In this document: positions 19,589 to 58,791 of the stretch, in pieces | Layout of the letters: the number at the start of each line of letters is the position of its first letter | Position numbering within the stretch: the stretch's first letter is position 1 | NCBI RefSeq assembly: GCF_900169065.1 | Contig: NZ_FXZB01000007.1 | Span: forward strand, 62,001 to 126,000 | Direction: 5' to 3' | Source of the DNA: Brevibacterium aurantiacum | GTDB lineage: Bacteria > Actinomycetota > Actinomycetes > Actinomycetales > Brevibacteriaceae | DNA: 64,000 nt | The notes under the pieces: model-generated | What the model saw: the letters and a program-made list of their open reading frames with translations, nothing else | Databases searched by the model: none | What the model was told of the DNA's origin: nothing | Made by a program: the position numbers and the translations under genes

Positions 19589-21064
19589 TCAGATCAGCTT
19601 GAGGGTGCGAGCCGTGTACTCGGAGAGCTCCTTGAGCAGTGTCTCGTCATCGGCGAGGCTGCGGCCCAGCGAGGGAACCATGTCCTTGATCGCAGGCTCC
19701 CAGCTGCTGTACTGGCGGGGGAAGCAGGTCTTGAGCAGGTTGAGCATGATCGACACTGCCGTCGATGCACCGGGGGAGGCGCCGAGGAGAGTAGCGATCG
19801 AGCCGTCGGCCGAGGAGATGAGCTCGGTGCCGAAGCTGAGCACTCCGCCCTTCTTGGGATCCTTCTTCATCACCTGCACGCGCTGACCGGCCTGGATGAA
19901 CTCCCAGTCGCTGGGGTCGATGTTCGGGATGAACTCGTGCATCGACTCGAAGCGGGCCTTCTTCGACGAGGCCAGCTCGGAGACGAGGTAGGTGACGAGG
20001 TCGGTGTTGTCCTTGGCCACGTTGAGCATTGTGGGCAGGTTGTTTCCGCGCACCGAGAAGGGCAGATCGGTGAAGCGTCCGCCCTTGAGGAACTTCGGAG
20101 AGAAGCCGGCGTAAGGGCCGAAGAGCAGGTAATCCTTGCCGTCGACGACACGGGTGTCGAGGTGAGGCACCGACATGGCAGGAGCACCGAAGGAAGCCTG
20201 GCCGTAGACCTTGGCCTGGTGACGGGCGACGAGATCGGGGTTCGAGGTCCGCAGGAAGATGCCGGAGACGGGGAATCCGCCGTAGCCGCGGCCCTCGGGG
20301 ATGCCCGACTTCTGCAGCAGCGGCAGAGCACCGCCGCCAGCGCCGTTGAAGACGAACTTCGCATTGATCTTATGGGTCTCGTGGGAGAGCAGGTCCTTGA
20401 CGGTGACGACCCAGCCGTCGGAGGAGCGTTCCAGGTCGGTGACCTGGTGGCTGGTGCGGATCGTGGCACCCTTGTCGCCGACGTAGTTGAGCAGCTGGTG
20501 CGAGAGCGAACCGAAGTCGACGTCCGTGCCGATCTTCGTGCGCGAGATGCCGTTGACCTGACCGGGTCCGCGGCCTTCGAACATCAGCGGCAGCCACTCG
20601 GCCTGGGTGGCCGGGTCGTCGGTGTACTCCATCTCGGAGAAGAGCGGATTGCGCACCATCTGCTCGTAGCGGTTCTTGATGTAGTCGCGTCCCTTCTCAC
20701 CACGGCCGTAGCTGATGTGAGGGACCTGGTTGATGAAGGACTTCGGCTCTGCCAGGACGCCGTTGTCGACGAGGTGCGACCAGTACTGGCGGGAGTGATG
20801 GAACTGCTCGTTGATCTGCGAGGCCTTCGCGAGATCGACGTGGCCGTTCTCGTCCTCAGGAGTGTAGTTGAGTTCGCACAGGGCGGCGTGGCCGGTGCCT
20901 GCGTTGTTCCAGGGATCGGAGCTCTCCTCGGCGACATAGTCGAGCTTCTCGTAGACCCGGATATCCCATTCGGGCTGAAGTTCGGTCAGCATGGCACCAA
21001 GAGTGGAGCTCATGATGCCGCCGCCGATCAAGACAACGTCAACCTTTTCCTGCGTTGAGGGCAT
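19589..21064 (-). CDS. mqo: Malate:quinone oxidoreductase
   Basis: FAD membrane-associated enzyme oxidising malate to oxaloacetate with electrons to quinone. It has 491 residues from ATG 21062-21064; an in-frame ATG four codons upstream directly abuts GAAGG and is less likely. N-terminal FAD motif VDVVLIGGGIMSSTLGAML, then YEKLDYVAEESSDPWNNAGTGHAALCELNYTP-type Mqo segments, LLFGPYAGFSPKFLK and LLGASPGASTAV. It is convergent with allE beyond a strong terminator, so it is probably not part of that regulon, though both act on malate. Confidence 0.95.
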   Translation of the reverse strand: MPSTQEKVDVVLIGGGIMSSTLGAMLTELQPEWDIRVYEKLDYVAEESSDPWNNAGTGHAALCELNYTPEDENGHVDLAKASQINEQFHHSRQYWSHLVDNGVLAEPKSFINQVPHISYGRGEKGRDYIKNRYEQMVRNPLFSEMEYTDDPATQAEWLPLMFEGRGPGQVNGISRTKIGTDVDFGSLSHQLLNYVGDKGATIRTSHQVTDLERSSDGWVVTVKDLLSHETHKINAKFVFNGAGGGALPLLQKSGIPEGRGYGGFPVSGIFLRTSNPDLVARHQAKVYGQASFGAPAMSVPHLDTRVVDGKDYLLFGPYAGFSPKFLKGGRFTDLPFSVRGNNLPTMLNVAKDNTDLVTYLVSELASSKKARFESMHEFIPNIDPSDWEFIQAGQRVQVMKKDPKKGGVLSFGTELISSADGSIATLLGASPGASTAVSIMLNLLKTCFPRQYSSWEPAIKDMVPSLGRSLADDETLLKELSEYTARTLKLI

Positions 21065-49445: not shown

Positions 49446-50300
<855 letters not shown>

Positions 50301-50351
50301 TCGGGAAATCGGGACGGCACTCGGGAATAAGACCACCTCCTTCGTCGTTGA

Positions 50352-50370
50352 TTGAGTCGTATAGGCTCAA
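50352..50370. promoter_or_regulatory. HAIR-like HspR operator before the Clp ATPase
   Basis: TTGAGT-N7-GCTCAA. The actinobacterial HAIR element is CTTGAGT-N7-ACTCAAG, so 11 of 14 specified bases match with the spacing kept. It lies 19 bp before the start codon, suggesting heat-shock control through HspR. Confidence 0.45.
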
Positions 50371-50389
50371 CTTTCGACAGGAGATCAGA

Positions 50390-52942
50390 TTGGCTACGTT
50401 CTTCGGATCCGCCGGTTCTGGCGGAGATTCATTCGACGAGTTCCTTGCCCGTTTTCTGCAGGGACAGCAGGGCGCGCGCCAGGGGCGCAGCGTCGACATC
50501 AACAAGCTGCTGAGCAAGCGCAGCCACGAGGTCATCGACAACGCCGCTGACTATGCCAGAGAGCACGGTCAGGCGGAGGTCGATGCCCTGCACATTCTGC
50601 GCACCATGGCAGAGACCGAGCCCGGAGTCTCGGCGATCCGTCAGGCCGGAGCTGACCCGGAGCAGGTCGCCCGCGCCGTCGAAGACCGTCTGCCCGCATC
50701 CTCAGACACCAAGCCCGAAGGGGCACTGACCCTTACCGGTTCCGGTCAGCGCGCGCTCCTCGACGCCTACCAGGTGGCACGGGCGTTCGGTTCGACCTAC
50801 GTCGACCCGGAGCACCTGTTCTTCGCCTTCGTGCTCAACCACGAGATGCCAGCAGGCCGCATCCTCGCCCAGGCGGGCGTGACACAGGAACGGCTGCAGG
50901 CCGGAGCCGAAGCCGCCGAGGCAGGCGACCCGCAGGGCGGTCCCGGAGCGGGCCAGCCGGAGGAGACCATGCTCGAGCGTTTCGGCACGGACCTCACGGC
51001 ACTGGCAGCCGACGGTGAACTCGACCCGGTGATCGGACGCGCCGAGGAGATCCAGGAGACGATCGAGATCCTGGCTCGCCGCACCAAGAACAACCCGGTG
51101 CTGCTCGGTGAGGCCGGCGTCGGCAAGACCGCGATCGCCGAGGGACTGGCTCAGGCCATCCACAGCGGCGAGATCCCAGCACAGCTCTCGGGTAAGCGAG
51201 TCGTCGCACTCGACCTGCCGGGCATGCTGGCAGGCACACGCTACCGCGGTGACTTCGAGGAACGCCTGACCGGGACCCTCGACGAAGTCGCCGAGGACGG
51301 CGAGATGATCGTCTTCATCGATGAGCTCCACACCCTCGTCGGTGCCGGCGGCAACGGCGAATCCAACTCGATGGACGCCGGCAACATCCTCAAGCCCCGG
51401 CTGGCCCGTGGTGATCTGCACCTGTTGGGTGCAACCACGCTCAAGGAATACCGCACGATCGAGAAGGACTCGGCCCTCGAACGTCGGTTCCAGCCGGTGC
51501 GCGTGGGGGAGCCGAACATCGAAGATGCCGTGGCAATCCTCGACGGACTCAAGGACCGCTACGCCGAGCACCACAATGTGACCTACACGCCCGAGGCGAT
51601 TCGCGCGTCGGTCGAGCTCTCCGATCGCTACATCAACGACAGGTTCCTGCCGGACAAGGCGATCGACCTCATCGACCAGGCCGGTGCTCGACTGTCTCTG
51701 CGTCGTGGGCCCAAGGTCGACACCCAGGCCCTGCGCACGGAGATCGAACGACTCGAGACCGAGAAGAACACCGCGATCAGCGAAGAGAACTATGAGCGTG
51801 CCGGGGAACTTCGCGACGAGGTCATGAGTCTCGGGGAGAAGCTGCATGCAGCCGAGAACCCGGACGACGGCGCGCAGCGGGCTGAGGCTGACGCCAAGCC
51901 GAGCATCGTCGATGCTGACCAGATCGCACAGGTCGTCTCCCGTGCCACCGGAATCCCGGCGGCGAGCATGACCCAGGGTCAGAAGGCCAAGCTGGCCAAG
52001 CTCGAAGAGATCCTCCACGGTCGCGTCATCGGTCAGGACAACGCGGTGACGGCAGTGTCGAAGGCCGTGCGCCGGTCCCAGATGGGAATGGGAGATCCGA
52101 ACCGTCCCATCGGCAGCTTCCTCTTCCTCGGACCCACCGGCGTGGGCAAAACCGAGCTGGCGAAATCTCTGGCCGCGACCCTGTTCGATGACGAGTCGGC
52201 GATGATCCGATTCGACATGAGCGAGTTCGGGGAACGCCACACCGTCTCACGCCTGGTGGGTTCGCCTCCCGGCTACGTCGGCTACGACGAAGCGGGACAG
52301 CTGACCGAACAGGTTCGGCGCAAGCCGTACTCGGTGATCCTCCTCGACGAGGTCGAGAAGGCTCACCCGGACGCCTTCAACCTGCTGCTCCAGGTCCTCG
52401 ACGACGGTCGTCTCACCGACGGTCAGGGCCGGACCGTGGACTTCCGGAACACCGTCATCATCATGACGAGCAACCTGGGCTCCGAGTTCATGTCCGGCAG
52501 CACCCCGCTGGGCTTCAGCTCCACCGATGCGAAGGTCACCGAGAAGGACCTGAGTGCAAAGGTGATGGGCAAGCTCAAGGAGTTCATGCGTCCCGAGTTC
52601 CTCAACCGGATCGACGAGACCGTGATGTTCTCGCGGCTCGATCGTGAGCAGCTGCGCGTCATCGTCCGTCTTCAGCTGGAGCGTTCGGTCGAGCGTCTGG
52701 CGCACCAGGGCATCGGCCTGACCGTGTCCGAGGATGCTGTGGAGTGGCTTTCCGATACCGGGTACGAACCCGAGTTCGGTGCCCGTCCGCTGCGCCGCGT
52801 GATCCAGCGTGAGCTCGATGACCGCATTGCGGACCTCCTCGTCAACGAGACAGTGTCCGAAGGCGGAAGGGTCAGCGCCACGGTTGACGACGGAACACTG
52901 CGAGTGGTCGCGGAATCACCCGAGGTTCCTGTGGCAGTCTGA
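50390..52942 (+). CDS. Clp-family AAA+ ATPase with UVR motif (ClpC-like)
   Basis: 850 residues from TTG 50390, behind CAGGAGATCAGA. An N-terminal Gly/Gln-rich stretch is followed by a Clp-N-like repeat domain (about 35-180). Walker A of domain 1 is [13 protein letters not shown] (Gly240-), and of domain 2 [12 protein letters not shown] (about 580). Between them is a short UVR helix pair (about 450-485: [19 protein letters not shown]) instead of the long ClpB coiled coil. STPLGFSS supplies an LGF-type loop like that by which ClpC docks on ClpP. It therefore looks like a protease partner, possibly of the ClpPs at 54.5-55.7 kb. Confidence 0.88.
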
Positions 52943-53026: not shown

Positions 53027-53839
53027 TCATGCGGCAGGAACTGCCTCTTCCTGCTCGTGAACCTTGAGGACACGGTTGAGCACGAGGCGCTCTGTCAGGG
53101 TCCAGGCTGTCGTCGTCATCAGGTAGAGCGTGGCAGCTAGAGGCACAAACAGTGCGATGACCGCGGTCATGAAGGGCATGAAGCTCAGCACCCTGGTCAC
53201 GCCTGAGAGGTCCGGCATGGCGGGTCCCTCGGTGGTGGAGTTCTGGCTGCCAGACGCCCGGACGGGCGGGGTCTGCGGCATATCGGGGGTGAGCAGATGC
53301 CGCGAGAGGGCAGCGACGACGGCGATGATGATCACGATGACGCCGAAGACTGCGGCCGAGACCACGCTCAGGTTCCCTCCGGTCAGGAGACCCACGAAGC
53401 CGGCGTTGAGGGGGACGCCCAGCAGGGAATGGTTGAGAAGGTCATTGGCGTGCCCGCCGATCGTGGATTGGATGAAGATTCCATAGACGGCCATGAGCAC
53501 CGGCATCTGGGCCAGCACGGGCAGGCAGCCGGCCATCGGGGAGGCCTTTTCCTCCTTGTAGAGCTCCATCATCTTCTGCTGCATAAGCTCGGGGGTCTTC
53601 TTGTACCGGGTCTGCAGCTCGGTGATCTTCGGTGCGAGGCGTTTGCGAGTGATGCCGGCTCTGACCTGTGAGAGCCCGACGGGGATGAGCACGGCGCGGA
53701 CGATGATCGTGAGCACCACGATCGCCAGCGCAGCACTTGCGGTGCCAGCCAATGGTTCGAGCAGAGTCGTCAGCCAGGTGACGACCCAATAGGCGGCGTT
53801 GACGAGCAGTTCGATGGGTGGAAATTCGTAGATGTTCAT
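53027..53839 (-). CDS. YidC/Oxa1-family membrane insertase paralogue
   Basis: 270 residues from MNIYEFPPIELLVN, behind CCAGGAGGGCCATCACC. The YidC core has VRAGITRKRLAPKITELQTR, MELYKEEKASPMAGCLPVLA and about five helices. The housekeeping yidC normally lies next to rnpA-rpmH near the origin, so this is a second copy. It follows a DUF6412 gene on the same strand. Confidence 0.88.
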   Translation of the reverse strand: MNIYEFPPIELLVNAAYWVVTWLTTLLEPLAGTASAALAIVVLTIIVRAVLIPVGLSQVRAGITRKRLAPKITELQTRYKKTPELMQQKMMELYKEEKASPMAGCLPVLAQMPVLMAVYGIFIQSTIGGHANDLLNHSLLGVPLNAGFVGLLTGGNLSVVSAAVFGVIVIIIAVVAALSRHLLTPDMPQTPPVRASGSQNSTTEGPAMPDLSGVTRVLSFMPFMTAVIALFVPLAATLYLMTTTAWTLTERLVLNRVLKVHEQEEAVPAA

Positions 53840-54030
53840 GGTGATGGCCCTCCTGGGCGCTGCCGATGCAGGCAATTCGGCCGTGCAGCGTTGAGCAGCA
53901 GTGGTGATGTCGTCATGGACGTTCAACGACCGAACGACGCAGGGCGACACCACAGGCGGGATCCGTTAGGGAAACAGACAGGAGTGGCGTCAGCGACCGT
54001 GCTTGAGGAGCACGGAGATCACGTCGTCGG

Positions 54031-54336
54031 TCAGGCGAAGGAGCGGACGACGAAGGAGGGGGCTCTGGCTTGAGCGGTGCCCGGAGTGCCGGGTTCCTCG
54101 GGCATGCGGAATTCGCGAACCTCGGTTCGCTCTCCCCGTCCCCAAAGACCGCGAGGAGACTGAGGAAGGAACCTGAAGAGAGCCCTTGCCAACCACGGTG
54201 CGACCGGCGACAGCAGTGCCGCACCGAGCAGCACGAGGACGATCAGATGCATCGACGACTGAGGAATGACCGTATCGGCATCGGCGCTGAGAAGCACCAC
54301 GATGAACTGAACTGTCATCCACAGATTCAGCATCAT
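54031..54336 (-). CDS. DUF6412-type small membrane protein
   Basis: 101 residues from MMLNLWMTVQFIVVLL. Two hydrophobic helices (about 3-18 and 27-50: SSMHLIVLVLLGAALLSPVA) precede a basic/acidic tail. The pairing with a YidC paralogue recurs in related actinobacteria as far as I recall. It lies 191 bp upstream of the yidC-like gene on the same strand; that gap shows no other gene. Confidence 0.65.
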   Translation of the reverse strand: MMLNLWMTVQFIVVLLSADADTVIPQSSMHLIVLVLLGAALLSPVAPWLARALFRFLPQSPRGLWGRGERTEVREFRMPEEPGTPGTAQARAPSFVVRSFA

Positions 54337-54455
54337 TCCGTCTCGGCCTTCCCTTGACACAGTCGGGGTTTCTCGCCCGATTTTATCACGGCAGCACCAT
54401 CACACCGGGCGCACAGGCACGCCGTCCGCTCACAGCGGCACCCTCCTGCTCAAGG

Positions 54456-54470
54456 CGGAAAAGACTTCCG
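54456..54470. promoter_or_regulatory. CGGAA-N5-TTCCG inverted repeat before clpP
   Basis: An exact inverted repeat with five-base arms, 30 bp before the clpP start. Its N5 spacing differs from the N7/N6 of the AllR-type sites. It may be the operator of the local HTH regulator. Confidence 0.3.
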
Positions 54471-54500: not shown

Positions 54501-55160
54501 ATGAACACACGAATCGCACATCAGAATGCTCACAACCGACCCACCTCACCATCGCCGAGGTTCGCCGACGGTGACGAGTCCACGACGACGACCCGCATCC
54601 CCGAGTCCCAGAGAATGCTCTACGCCTACCGTTCGGTGGTCTTCAACGGGGAGCTGCGCGATGAGAACGGCATGGAGATCATCTCGCGACTCATCCTCCT
54701 CTCCGCCGAAGACTCCCACAGTGACATCCACCTGTGGATCAACTCACCGGGCGGATCGGTGCCGATGATGCACGCGATCGCCGATGTGATCGAGACTCTG
54801 CCCAACGATGTGGTCACGGTGGCGTTCGGGTGGGCCGCCTCGGCGGGGCAGTTCGTGCTCATGATGGGCACCCCCGGCAAACGACTCGCCCTGCCCCACG
54901 CCCGGATCCTGCTGCACCAGGGATCATCGGGCATCGGGGGAGCGGCCGCTGACATCGAGCTGCAGTCCGGGGACCTGCGCACCGTCCGGGACACGGTCCT
55001 GCATCGCATCGCCGAGGCGACGGGAAAGACCTATGAGCGTGTCTTCGAGGACTCCCTGCGCGATCGGTGGTTCACGGTCGAACAGGCACTGGACTACGGG
55101 CTCATCGACCGCATCGTCGAGTCCCCGGCCGATCTGCGCGGCGGGATCGGTGCGCCATGA
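54501..55160 (+). CDS. clpP: ClpP protease subunit with intact catalytic triad
   Basis: 219 residues from ATG 54501, behind GTGTGGAGGC. The triad is complete: Ser114 in GWAASAGQFVLM, His139 in ARILLHQGSSG and Asp188 in LRDRWFTVEQA. The oxyanion strand INSPGGSV is present. An N-terminal extension of about 38 residues (Ser/Thr-rich) may be a propeptide. It overlaps the second clpP gene by four bases, so the two are made together. The housekeeping clpP1-clpP2-clpX locus is not here, so this is an accessory pair. Confidence 0.93.
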   Translation: MNTRIAHQNAHNRPTSPSPRFADGDESTTTTRIPESQRMLYAYRSVVFNGELRDENGMEIISRLILLSAEDSHSDIHLWINSPGGSVPMMHAIADVIETLPNDVVTVAFGWAASAGQFVLMMGTPGKRLALPHARILLHQGSSGIGGAAADIELQSGDLRTVRDTVLHRIAEATGKTYERVFEDSLRDRWFTVEQALDYGLIDRIVESPADLRGGIGAP

Positions 55161-55738
55161 GCCAGTACACGATTCCGAATGTCGTTGACCGCTCGGGTGG
55201 CGGGGAGAAGATCGTCGACGTGTATTCCCACCTGCTGGGCAACCGCATCATCTACCTCGGAGTGCCGATCGATGACGGGGTGGCGAATACGATCATCGCC
55301 CAGCTGCTCCACCTCGAGGCGAGCAGCCGAGAACTCCCGATCCAGCTGTACATCAACTCACCGGGCGGATCGCTGACGGCCATGACCGCCATCTACGACG
55401 CGATGCACCACATCGGTGCGCCCGTGGCGACCATCTGCGTGGGGCAGGCGGCCGCTGATGCCGCGGTGCTCCTGGCAGCTGGCGAACCCGGTCAGCGTTC
55501 GATGCTCGAACACGCTCGAGCGGTGCTGCGCCAACCCCATGCCGAGGGTGCTCGCGGGGCAATCCCCGATCTCATCGTCGCCGCCGACGAGATCGCCCGG
55601 CAGCGCCGAGATGTTGAGGCGATGCTGGCGAAGGGCACCGGGCGCAGTGTGGACCAGATCCATGCCGACCTCGACCGGGATCTCGTGCTCAATGCGCAGG
55701 CGGCCCGGGACTTCGGCCTCGTCGATCAGATCCTCTGA
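55157..55738 (+). CDS. ClpP-like subunit lacking catalytic Ser and His (ClpR-like)
   Basis: 193 residues. The fold is well preserved (IIYLGVPIDDGVANTIIAQL, LYINSPGGSLTAM, FGLVDQIL). The nucleophile in the usual GQAAS is Ala100 (GQAAADAAVLLAAG) and the His of the usual HQP is Arg125 (AVLRQPHAEG); Asp175 in LDRDLVLN remains. It should be proteolytically dead and structural or regulatory, as cyanobacterial and plastid ClpR are. Coupled translation with the active ClpP suggests a mixed tetradecamer. Confidence 0.92.
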   Translation: MSQYTIPNVVDRSGGGEKIVDVYSHLLGNRIIYLGVPIDDGVANTIIAQLLHLEASSRELPIQLYINSPGGSLTAMTAIYDAMHHIGAPVATICVGQAAADAAVLLAAGEPGQRSMLEHARAVLRQPHAEGARGAIPDLIVAADEIARQRRDVEAMLAKGTGRSVDQIHADLDRDLVLNAQAARDFGLVDQIL

Positions 55739-55830: not shown

Positions 55831-57231
55831 ATGAGCCGATCCTGGCGTGCCGCCGCCGAGGCGAGCGATCCCGATGCTGATCGTCGCGTCCGTCGTCGAC
55901 CTCGGCTGCTCCTGGTTGCCCTGAGCGTCCTGGCCCTGCTCCTGCAGCTGCCCTTCGCCGTGTTCATGGCCACCCACGATGGTGTCGATGCCCTGGCCGG
56001 GGGCGTGCGCATCGCCGTAGCCCTGCTGTCCCCGATGATCTTCTTACTCTGTGCACGATGGCCGGGCCCGAGAGTCGCGATCATCGCCGGGCTGACGCTG
56101 GTTGACTTCGTCGCCTGGGCCGCACTGGCGGGATCCAGCCTGTCCGGTGCGTGGAGCCACGGTCCAAGTAATCGTCCCTGGTCTGGGGAGGGTCCGGGCG
56201 GAATGTGGGCGCAGGGGCTCACCGGACCTGAGATGACACCGTTCTATGCGGCGTTCCTCTTCGCTCTCGTCGTGGCCATGGTCCGCGGTCATCAGATCTG
56301 GGCCATCGCCTCGGCGGCCGGTGTCTGGTTGGGTGCCCTGCTGCTCGGTCCCTTCCTCGGTGTCGACTGGTCGGTGGGGCGTGTGGCCTCTGCGACGATC
56401 GGTCTGCTGATGACCCTGAGCATCGGAGCCTTCGCTCGGCGCAGGCGCGAAGGCAGGAGGCTCGCGGCCGAGGAGGCGCAGGCCCGGCACCAGGAGGTGA
56501 TTGCGGCCGAAAGGCTGCGCATCGCCAGGGACCTCCACGATGTGCTGGGCCATTCCCTGTCCCAGATCAACGTGCAGGCCGGTGTGGGCGAACACCTCAT
56601 CGACCGGGACCCCGAGCAGGCCAGACGGGCGCTCGCCGCCATCAAGGAGCTGAGTCGAACGGGACTCAACGAGGTCCGTTCAGTGCTCCACACGATGCGC
56701 TCGGATGCTGCCGGCCCAAGCGATCTCGACTCCGACGCGGCCGGCACTGACGCGGCCAGTGCCGACGCAGGCACAGCCGAGCCGCTGGCCCCAGTGCCGG
56801 GCCTCGACGAGCTGCCGGCACTCATCGCCGCAATGACCGGGCGACCAGCCATCCACCTCGATGACCGGCGCGAGCTCCGAGCCGACGGTACTCGAGAGAA
56901 TCCCGGCAGTGCCGCGGATGCGGCCGCCTACCGGATCGTGCAGGAGGCGCTGACGAATATGGTCCGCCACGCTGCCGCCAGCCAGGCGAACGTCAGAGTC
57001 TTCCGTGAAGGCGAGTTCCTGCACCTCGAGATCAGTGACGATGGCCAGGGAACAGAGAACGCGATGCACGGGCGAGACGAAGGCACCGGAATCATCGGGA
57101 TGCGGGAGCGGACGAAACTTCTCCACGGAACCTTCGCGATCACCTCGGCGAGCGGGGACGGCACGCACATCAGCGTCCGGCTGCCCTGGACCAGCGGACA
57201 CGGACGAACAGATCGGCAGGCTGAGGCATGA
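55831..57231 (+). CDS. NarL-type sensor histidine kinase
   Basis: 466 residues. Five or six N-terminal helices (about 25-205) carry no large external sensor domain. HisKA_3 has RIARDLHDVLGHSLSQINVQ, with the phosphoacceptor His236. An Ala/Asp-rich insert (about 290-320) precedes the ATPase domain (AAYRIVQEALTNMVRHA, EISDDGQG, GTGIIGMRERTKLL). The stop overlaps the response regulator by four bases. The signal is unknown. Confidence 0.93.
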   Translation: MSRSWRAAAEASDPDADRRVRRRPRLLLVALSVLALLLQLPFAVFMATHDGVDALAGGVRIAVALLSPMIFLLCARWPGPRVAIIAGLTLVDFVAWAALAGSSLSGAWSHGPSNRPWSGEGPGGMWAQGLTGPEMTPFYAAFLFALVVAMVRGHQIWAIASAAGVWLGALLLGPFLGVDWSVGRVASATIGLLMTLSIGAFARRRREGRRLAAEEAQARHQEVIAAERLRIARDLHDVLGHSLSQINVQAGVGEHLIDRDPEQARRALAAIKELSRTGLNEVRSVLHTMRSDAAGPSDLDSDAAGTDAASADAGTAEPLAPVPGLDELPALIAAMTGRPAIHLDDRRELRADGTRENPGSAADAAAYRIVQEALTNMVRHAAASQANVRVFREGEFLHLEISDDGQGTENAMHGRDEGTGIIGMRERTKLLHGTFAITSASGDGTHISVRLPWTSGHGRTDRQAEA

Positions 57232-57902
57232 ACGATATCTCGGTGGCGATTGCCGATGATCACCAGCTGGTTCGCGCCGGCTTCGCTTCGCTGTTGGATG
57301 CGGAACCGGGCATCAGCGTGAGTGTGCAGGCCTCCGGCGGGGAAGAGCTGTTGGAGAAACTGGCAGCGACGCCGGTCGACGTCGTGCTCATGGACATTCG
57401 GATGCCCGACGGTGACGGACTGTGGGCCACCGAGGCGATCGCAGCCGATCCCGACCTCGGGCACGTTCGGGTGGTGCTGGTGACGACCTTCGGCCTCGAC
57501 GAGTACATCGTGCGCGCGGTCAGGGCGGGTGCCAGCGGATTCCTGCTCAAGGACACCGAACCGGTCGACCTGATCCGAGCGGTGCGCGTCGTCGCCGAGG
57601 GGGAGGCGCTGCTCTCACCGGAGGTGACCCGATACCTCCTGTCGAGGATGTCCCTGGGACTGCGGGCGGAGCCGGCGAAGCATCTCGACGTGCTGACACA
57701 ACGTGAACGAGAGGTGCTCGCCCTCGTCGGGCAGGGACTGTCGAACGACGAGATCGCGGCGCAGCTGGTGCTCTCACCGCTGACGGCGAAGACCCATGTC
57801 TCGCGCATCATGAGCAAGGTCGCCGCACGCGACAGGGTCCACCTCGTCGTGCTCGCCTATGAGTCCGGGCTGGTCTCCCCGGGCTGGCTGCGCGAACAGT
57901 AG
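57228..57902 (+). CDS. NarL/LuxR-type response regulator
   Basis: 224 residues. The receiver domain has IADDHQLVRAGF and the phosphorylated Asp56 in DVVLMDIRMPDGDG. The LuxR helix-turn-helix (about 155-215) contains LTQREREVLALVGQGLSNDE and SPLTAKTHVSRIMSKV. Targets are unknown, but the nearby clpP, SHOCT and HTH genes are candidates. Confidence 0.94.
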   Translation: MNDISVAIADDHQLVRAGFASLLDAEPGISVSVQASGGEELLEKLAATPVDVVLMDIRMPDGDGLWATEAIAADPDLGHVRVVLVTTFGLDEYIVRAVRAGASGFLLKDTEPVDLIRAVRVVAEGEALLSPEVTRYLLSRMSLGLRAEPAKHLDVLTQREREVLALVGQGLSNDEIAAQLVLSPLTAKTHVSRIMSKVAARDRVHLVVLAYESGLVSPGWLREQ

Positions 57903-58326: not shown

Positions 58327-58665
58327 CTAGGCCACGAGGGACAGCTGCGCCCGTCCGGTGAGCCCGAATGCGGGCACCGTCGCGGGCGCGGCTGTCGGCG
58401 TTGAGCCGGCGGCGAGGACGAGCACCTGGGGGAGTGCGAGGCCGAGGACTATGGCGATTGCCTCGATGACCTCCGAAGAGGGATCCTTGAGGCCGCGTTC
58501 GACCTCGGACAGGTATTGGGTCGAGACTCCCGAGCGGCGTGAGACCTGAGCCAGGGTCAGGCCCAGCTCGGTGCGGCGCAGCCGCAGCACCCTCCCGAGC
58601 ATCTCGCGCCACAGCAGCGCCGGAGTCCGGTCGGCGTACGCATCTGTGACGTGAAGTGCATCCAT
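58327..58665 (-). CDS. Small XRE-type HTH regulator, ClgR/PopR-like
   Basis: 112 residues, a single helix-turn-helix (about 22-80: LRLRRTELGLTLAQVSRRSG, VSTQYLSEVERGLKDPSSEV). The YLSEVERG-x-K-x-x-SSE pattern is that of ClgR and PopR, which activate clp genes in Corynebacterium, Mycobacterium and Streptomyces. The C-terminus ends in LSLVA, a hydrophobic tail that could be a Clp degron. Its place near a clpP pair supports a clp regulatory role. TAGGAT precedes ATG 58663-58665 by six bases, suggesting a leaderless start. Confidence 0.75.
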   Translation of the reverse strand: MDALHVTDAYADRTPALLWREMLGRVLRLRRTELGLTLAQVSRRSGVSTQYLSEVERGLKDPSSEVIEAIAIVLGLALPQVLVLAAGSTPTAAPATVPAFGLTGRAQLSLVA

Positions 58666-58677: not shown

Positions 58678-58791
58678 GGAGGAATCGCCGTCGCTCACGC
58701 GGATTTCTGCTCTGAGCAGACGAATACCGGCTGCCCCGTCATGCGCTCGAGGGGGATCAGGGCGCGGTCGAGTTGCACCCAGGCCGCGAAG

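Follow-up and report, generated by a model that had tools for sequence, protein, structure and literature searches.

In ClpP1P2, the nearest relative of the proteins described here, one ring of the protease core consists of ClpP1 and the other of ClpP2. The two rings share the work unequally: in Streptomyces hawaiiensis ClpP1 cuts and ClpP2 docks all three Clp ATPases, the docking pocket lying at the positions of E. coli Y74, Y76 and F96, and a core carrying ClpP2-S131A has full activity (PMC9765437), while in Mycobacterium tuberculosis ClpP1 activity alone is needed and ClpP2 is a scaffold whose own activity is nonessential (PMC9067928). Streptomyces additionally carries a clpP3-clpP4 operon with the activator PopR (PMC9765437, PMC12607617, PMC9775585), and in S. 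lividans at least one of clpP1clpP2 and clpP3clpP4 is essential (PMC9765437). The S. lividans PopR target is TCTGCC-3N-GGCGAATCTGCC-3N-GGCAGA, with two boxes 15 bp apart (PMC9775585). ClpP homologues without a triad that stand beside an active ClpP are known as ClpR from cyanobacteria, plastids and apicoplasts, the plastid R-ring being composed of ClpR1-4 and active ClpP1 (PMC7966870). Single ClpPs without critical residues were also listed from S. coelicolor, Nocardia asteroides and Leptospira interrogans and likened to ClpR (PMC9067928); those of S. coelicolor and Nocardia probably belong to the ClpP4 family treated below. They appear in the accessible part of that paper as examples alone, with operon, recurrence, paralogy and selection not given there. 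Inactive serine protease homologues have been counted in 91 genomes, with no ClpP4 finding in the accessible part of that study (PMC2605481). In the open-access literature we found no paper on ClpR in actinobacteria and no account of recurrent loss, operon identity or asymmetry, and the papers listed for the PopR half-site were unrelated ones on lipoproteins. The accessible part of the literature searched yielded neither a structure of a purified ClpP3P4 core nor biochemical work on one.

The window analysed here, a stretch of 64,000 nucleotides from Brevibacterium aurantiacum, contains the gene of an active ClpP coupled to that of a catalytically dead ClpP (Table 1), as the initial annotation had claimed. 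The triad residues were located where it had placed them, all three being kept in the first protein and the second having Ala for Ser and Arg for His with Asp retained, and the ATGA overlap of the two genes was seen at 55157-55160. Its claim that the second protein keeps the ClpP fold was also borne out, by the Pfam CLP_protease model (179.5 bits for ClpP3 and 200.5 bits for ClpP4, cut-off 20.2) and by a confident AlphaFold2 model of ClpP4 (mean pLDDT 88.9, pTM 0.82), for which the top PDB matches are M. tuberculosis ClpP1P2 entries (TM 0.91-0.92, 46% identity). The start codon of clpP3 (ATG at 54501) is uncertain because the GGAGG lies only 1 base before it. NCBIfam, Pfam and PDB sequence searches labelled both proteins just as ClpP, and two more Pfam ClpPs, side by side on another contig of the same genome, are the housekeeping pair. 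ClpR, to which the annotation had likened the dead subunit, is a fair functional comparison; the NCBIfam model NF009204, which we take to be the ClpR-type model, matched ClpP4 with 148 bits (cut-off 263).

Table 1. Coordinates of clpP3-clpP4 and surrounding features in the window
Feature	Coordinates	Strand	Description
ClpI-type (ClpIa) unfoldase	50207..52942	+	double-ring, UVR motif, LGF loop (PLGFSST); start codon uncertain
YidC/Oxa1-type insertase gene	53027-53953		conserved between clpI and clpP3 in many Brevibacterium
small membrane protein	54031-54360		accompanies the YidC/Oxa1-type gene between clpI and clpP3
PopR box 1	54425..54439	.	TCCGCT-CAC-AGCGGC; predicted, upstream of clpP3
PopR box 2	54445..54459	.	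CCTGCT-CAA-GGCGGA; predicted, 20 bp from box 1
clpP3	54501..55160	+	active ClpP, 219 aa, Ser114-His139-Asp188 (codons 54840-54842, 54915-54917, 55062-55064); paralogue of housekeeping ClpP1
clpP4	55157..55738	+	catalytically dead ClpP, 193 aa, Ala100-Arg125-Asp175 (codons 55454-55456, 55529-55531, 55679-55681); paralogue of housekeeping ClpP2
sensor kinase + response regulator	55831..57902	+	between clpP4 and popR; not regarded as part
popR	58327..58665	-	ClgR/PopR-type HTH activator of 112 aa with a degron-like C-terminus (LSLVA), convergent with clpP3-clpP4
PopR box before popR	58706..58720	.	perfect palindrome TCTGCTCTGAGCAGA (+ strand); predicted

For comparison with relatives, and so that a dead triad would not bias their choice, 393 genomes were drawn evenly from the class regardless of triad state; the ClpP4 profile used to search them mixed intact and degenerate members. 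The scores were bimodal with a gap between 294 and 284 bits, and all 120 places above the gap (119 and the window) were taken. A further 80 named loci are biased because they were chosen by likeness to the window (74 of the 80 are degenerate), and rates are therefore given from the class sample alone. ClpP3 adjoins clpP4 in all 119 class loci where the contig permits, with a 4-base overlap in 68 of the 119. In a tree of 71 rows of ClpP3, ClpP4 and housekeeping ClpP1 and ClpP2, built with the triad columns omitted and containing no ClpR rows, ClpP3 and ClpP1 were split from ClpP4 and ClpP2 with an SH-aLRT of 100 on both sides, and thus the clpP3-clpP4 operon is a duplicate of clpP1-clpP2. ClpP4 formed a single group (support 92) and so, weakly (18), did ClpP3; in a second tree, from another sample and under a simpler model, each required 2 changes, not 1. 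By its place in the tree ClpP4 is a paralogue of ClpP2, and its kinship with ClpR may go no further than both being ClpP.

Operon order, convergent popR, tandem PopR boxes, paralogy with clpP1clpP2 and, in most relatives, an AA-type PopR tail are all shared with Streptomyces clpP3-clpP4/PopR. The Streptomyces locus had at first been taken as a partial precedent, which understated the case: by PopR, PopR boxes and operon paralogy the Brevibacterium locus is the clpP3-clpP4/popR locus of Streptomyces, and the Streptomyces ClpP4 itself lacks a catalytic residue, with His changed to Gly in 27 of 27 Streptomyces-clade rows (8 named Streptomyces and 19 sampled, family code f6; 26 Ser-Gly-Asp and 1 Ser-Gly-Glu). 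The two differ in the triad, Ser and His being lost in Brevibacterium and His in Streptomyces, in the boxes, which in Brevibacterium have a TCCGCT-type half-site and stand 20 bp apart compared to 15, and in popR, which in the window strain is set off by a two-component system and encodes an LVA rather than an LAA tail.

The best NCBIfam match of the popR product was the ClgR model, with 64.1 bits and hence below the equivalog cut-off of 170, which fits PopR being a paralogue of ClgR. Of the 120 class loci, 106 have a popR-like HTH gene, on the opposite strand in every case (106/106); in the other 14, at least 3 of which are cut at a contig end, none was found. In the window it lies 2.6 kb from clpP4, behind the sensor kinase and response regulator; the same two genes intervene in several other Brevibacterium but are absent there in others, and popR can be adjacent to clpP4. 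Of the PopR tails, 100 of the 106 from class loci and 28 of the 36 from Brevibacterium-family loci (some genomes being counted twice) end in AA.

The published tandem PopR target is present upstream of clpP3 here (54425-54459) with a variant half-site. Inverted repeats were recovered upstream of clpP3 in the class sample (TCTGC-N5-GCAGA in 74/118, TCTGCC-N3-GGCAGA in 41/118) and in the Brevibacterium family (CCGCT-N3-AGCGG in 16/29). When scored by the form TCYGCY-N3-RGCRGA (maximum 12), a box of 11 or more was found in 113 of 118 class upstreams, in 54 of the 59 named others and in 28 of the 29 distinct upstreams from the Brevibacterium family, compared to 6, 3 and 0 after shuffling; these counts are descriptive and carry no test because the form was defined after the data had been seen. 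With the fixed TCTGCC form, 104 of the 118 class loci scored at least 10 of 12 (1 after shuffling). The spacing of paired boxes (sites of at least 9/12) was 15 bp in 91 of the 118 class upstreams, and in the Brevibacterium family it was 20 bp in 26 of the 29 distinct upstreams. A box also preceded popR itself in 29/30 Brevibacterium-family, 53/102 class and 19/58 named other upstreams (shuffled 0, 2 and 1), which suggests that popR is probably autoregulated, most clearly in Brevibacterium; no mention of this was found in the accessible parts of the PopR literature. Two further strict-pattern matches, at 20659 (inside an mqo-like gene) and 58153, were taken as chance, 1.5 being expected in the window.

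Within the genus Brevibacterium a ClpP4 orthologue was found in 32 of 57 genomes (59-100% identity), and also in 3 of 3 genomes from other genera of the family. It had been proposed at the outset that the second protein be aligned with its actinobacterial relatives; the loss of Ser proved conserved, in all 35 family genomes that have clpP3-clpP4, and the dead state being unique to this strain is excluded, since the triad is Ala-Arg-Asp in 31 of the 32 Brevibacterium genomes and Ala-His-Asp in the other. The three genomes of other genera have Ala-Arg-Asp, Ala-His-Asp and Ala-His-Glu. As the Ser loss is fixed in the family and the partner triad is intact in every row examined, the half-dead pair is more than chance. 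The dead ClpP4 is under stronger purifying selection than the active ClpP3, the median pairwise dN/dS being 0.107 for clpP4 and 0.215 for clpP3 (29 Brevibacterium genomes; 403 pairs with dS between 0.1 and 1.5).

Among the class loci, 77 of 120 ClpP4 triads were degenerate and 43 intact, compared to 0 of 119 for the ClpP3 partners (1 locus was cut at a contig end; Fisher p = 1e-31, kinship ignored). Controls from 32 housekeeping loci gave 0/31 degenerate for ClpP2 and 1/31 for ClpP1, and ClpP4 differed from ClpP2 with p = 4e-12, or 2e-8 when only the 20 surest ClpP2 rows were used (0/20 degenerate), kinship again being ignored. Twenty of these loci had been picked, among the matches listed, by a ClpP3-profile search of 296 phylum genomes (the profile failed to separate ClpP3 from ClpP1 and served just to pick controls) and 11 extra loci were the next-best ClpP2-type matches of the ClpP4 profile, whose housekeeping status is assumed from the score. 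The lone non-canonical triad among the 62 housekeeping rows, Ser-His-Glu in a ClpP1-type control (L286), was counted. The view in the initial annotation that dead subunits are not the norm in actinobacteria therefore stands for ClpP1P2, where the ClpP2 triad was always kept, and fails for ClpP4, where the degenerate form is the majority of the sample. Triad loss is nevertheless not required for the ClpP3P4 system, as the intact ClpP4s demonstrate, which were found for example in Frankiaceae and Cellulomonas.

The commonest degenerate triads were Ala-His-Asp (23), Ser-Gly-Asp (18) and Gly-His-Asp (7), followed by Glu-His-Asn (6), Glu-His-His (5), Ser-His-Asn (4), Trp-His-Thr (3) and others (11). 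Ser or His was gone in 70 of the 77; the 7 in which Asp alone was gone might retain activity. A tree of 183 ClpP4s, 120 of them sampled and 63 named, was built with 6 ClpP2 rows as the outgroup and without the triad columns. It required a minimum of 9 triad changes if these are unordered. On the assumption that a lost triad never returns, the best tree has 17 losses, falling to 16, 12, 10 and 7 when branches with SH-aLRT below 50, 80, 90 and 95 were collapsed; the count is approximate because the tree comes from 190 columns and a quick search. The residue lost differs by clade, with His lost in Streptomyces, Ser and His in Brevibacterium and Ser in others, while Asp was apparently lost first in Acidimicrobiales and in the clade holding Jiangella. 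The ClpP4 active site thus seems to have been lost many times across the actinobacteria with the triad of its ClpP3 partner intact. The operon has likely been transferred between families, which would make these losses less independent. One clade of 26 ClpP4 rows (SH-aLRT 99), Ser-less with His and Asp kept, is spread over seven family codes (L194, L223-L225, L233, L235, L236, L243, L245, L248, L250, L251, L254, L255, L259-L262, L264, L266, L267, L269, L274, L277-L279), and family f83 has intact ClpP4 clades besides this one; the dead version of the operon, too, seems to move between families.

The docking pocket positions were placed on the alignment by reference to the E. coli sequence, presumably correctly. 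On that placement, positions 2 and 3 were both aromatic in 104/120 ClpP4, 20/20 ClpP2, 15/21 ClpP1 and 5/119 ClpP3, and, within ClpP4, in 43/43 intact and 61/77 degenerate members, so the ATPase-docking pocket is, as far as these residues tell, mostly kept in ClpP4 and mostly not in ClpP3. The third residue is His, not Phe or Tyr, in 16 of the 77 degenerate ClpP4s, the window included, and in none of the 43 intact ones. In the window the pockets read Gln-Tyr-His in ClpP4, which is partly canonical, and His-Trp-Thr in ClpP3, and docking by ClpP4 alone is less certain there because its position 3 is His and ClpP3 keeps Trp at position 2. An N-terminal hairpin motif was found in 111/120 ClpP4, 0/119 ClpP3 and 0/20 ClpP2, which by itself says little on function because the search expression was derived from ClpP4 and fails on ClpP2, whose N-terminus looks similar to that of ClpP4 without being identical.

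A dead ClpP4 could simply be a decaying copy that drifted because a backup system is rarely used. The triad columns of ClpP4 do vary (by entropy, Ser ranks 145, His 85 and Asp 104 of 192), and the pair is dispensable, since 25 of the 57 genus genomes are without it and broken clpP3/clpP4 remnants stand at the syntenic site in two of these (G018 and G049). In those remnants, however, clpP3 is likewise broken, and hence decays together with clpP4, and where the pair survives clpP4 has no internal stop (0 of 120 class places, 0 of 35 family genomes), is more constrained than its active partner, has mostly kept its pocket, and is alone in having lost the triad. We therefore regard decay as very unlikely and largely refuted. 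Elsewhere among the pair-less genomes, parts resembling clpP3 and clpP4 lie in different frames of a broken stretch in G007, close to a popR-like gene, and in G016 no trace of clpP3 or clpP4 was found beside clpI.

ClpP4 might instead form a dead ring of its own, or act as a decoy which caps ClpP1P2 or occupies Clp ATPases, and so be a regulator and not part of a protease. Docking features mostly kept without catalysis are what a decoy would have, and interference between ClpP paralogues is known, ClpP-ADEP disrupting ADEP-activated ClpP1 complexes (PMC12607617). The constant presence of an adjoining clpP3, frequently overlapping, speaks against it, and S. lividans is viable on clpP3clpP4 without clpP1clpP2 (PMC9765437), a life that would not be possible if ClpP4 were purely a decoy; this role is accordingly improbable. 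A third arrangement, to which the initial annotation had pointed, would mix ClpP3 and ClpP4 within one heptamer, as in cyanobacterial ClpP/ClpR and in the plastid R-ring, where dead and active subunits do share a ring. Against this, the nearest relatives segregate their subunits into separate rings, and ClpP4 differs from ClpP3 as ClpP2 does from ClpP1, in lineage and in pocket, which makes mixed rings unlikely.

We consider it probable that the locus encodes a PopR-controlled, conditional backup Clp core, ClpP3P4, in which the ClpP3 ring would carry out catalysis and the ClpP4 ring the docking. The starting points of this model, namely the sequence, triad states, paralogy, recurrence of loss, selection, boxes and popR linkage, are directly established. 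Judging by its LVA tail (LAA in most relatives), and by analogy with Streptomyces, PopR would be kept at a low level by the housekeeping ClpP1P2, and would accumulate when ClpP1P2 fails or is overloaded, then bind the tandem boxes and switch on clpP3-clpP4. Expression of the pair on loss of ClpP1P2, and survival on it instead, are reported for S. lividans alone. ClpP3 and ClpP4 may then assemble into a hetero-tetradecamer, in the simplest case with one ring of each, in which all peptide-bond cleavage would fall to ClpP3, and ClpP4 would contribute the hairpin at the axial entry and the hydrophobic pockets for docking a Clp ATPase (ClpX, ClpC or perhaps the neighbouring ClpI). For Brevibacterium we infer the assembly, stoichiometry and activity of this core, the docking by ClpP4 and the induction. 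A ClpP4 without a working active site would be the end point of the asymmetry of ClpP1P2, in which an active ClpP1-type subunit is likewise joined to a ClpP2-type one that docks the ATPase and, in laboratory mutants, can do without its serine. If the S. lividans ClpP4 is His-less like the other Streptomyces-clade rows, a half-dead core already sustains life there.

The unfoldase gene preceding the pair fits the ClpIa class, judged by motifs and model scores: it has a short ClpC-like M-domain, the LGF motif and an intermediate standing between ClpB and ClpC (UVR motif at residues 512-544; 944 of 1232 bits with the ClpB equivalog model and 740 of 993 with ClpA). The class name comes from a study which notes that in Brevibacterium linens clpIa lies upstream of a 'secondary clpP1-clpP2 locus' (PMC10149685), the same neighbourhood as in the window. 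ClpI was found in 48 of the 57 genus genomes, 31 with the pair and 17 without, while 1 had the pair without ClpI and 8 had neither (Fisher p 0.007, kinship ignored). Because 17 of the 48 ClpI genomes lack clpP3-clpP4, ClpI as the dedicated unfoldase of the pair was rejected as a firm claim; the strict PopR-box pattern had no match just before the ClpI gene. ClpIa is a neighbour and possibly a partner of ClpP3P4, not a dedicated one.

The new element is how common the dead-subunit form of the PopR-controlled ClpP3P4 core, itself known, proves to be. Like ClpR, ClpP4 is a triad-less ClpP homologue beside an active ClpP, but unlike ClpR it is a paralogue of the actinobacterial ClpP2 which has lost its triad more than once, and it has another controller and another partner. 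Laboratory mutants of S. hawaiiensis and M. tuberculosis ClpP1P2 do without the ClpP2 serine, which raises the question of why housekeeping ClpP2 keeps it (31/31), when evolution of the clpP3-clpP4 duplicate has dropped that same site on more than one occasion, and among the rows examined only from the docking-type subunit. It is possible, though we hold it doubtful, that the docking ring has repeatedly been freed from catalysis because the loss is advantageous and not merely tolerated; a half-active core, with seven sites in one ring, could then be an emergency protease whose processivity or peptide products are unlike those of ClpP1P2, or whose docking ring offers no target to the active-site inhibitors that neighbouring actinomycetes make. 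If this were true, the actinobacterial ClpP4 would be a phylum-wide natural experiment. Intact and dead ClpP4s within one family offer ready comparisons for what a second active ring is for, and the picture of ClpP3P4 as just another ordinary two-subunit protease changes, a point of relevance to work on ADEP and beta-lactones in Streptomyces.
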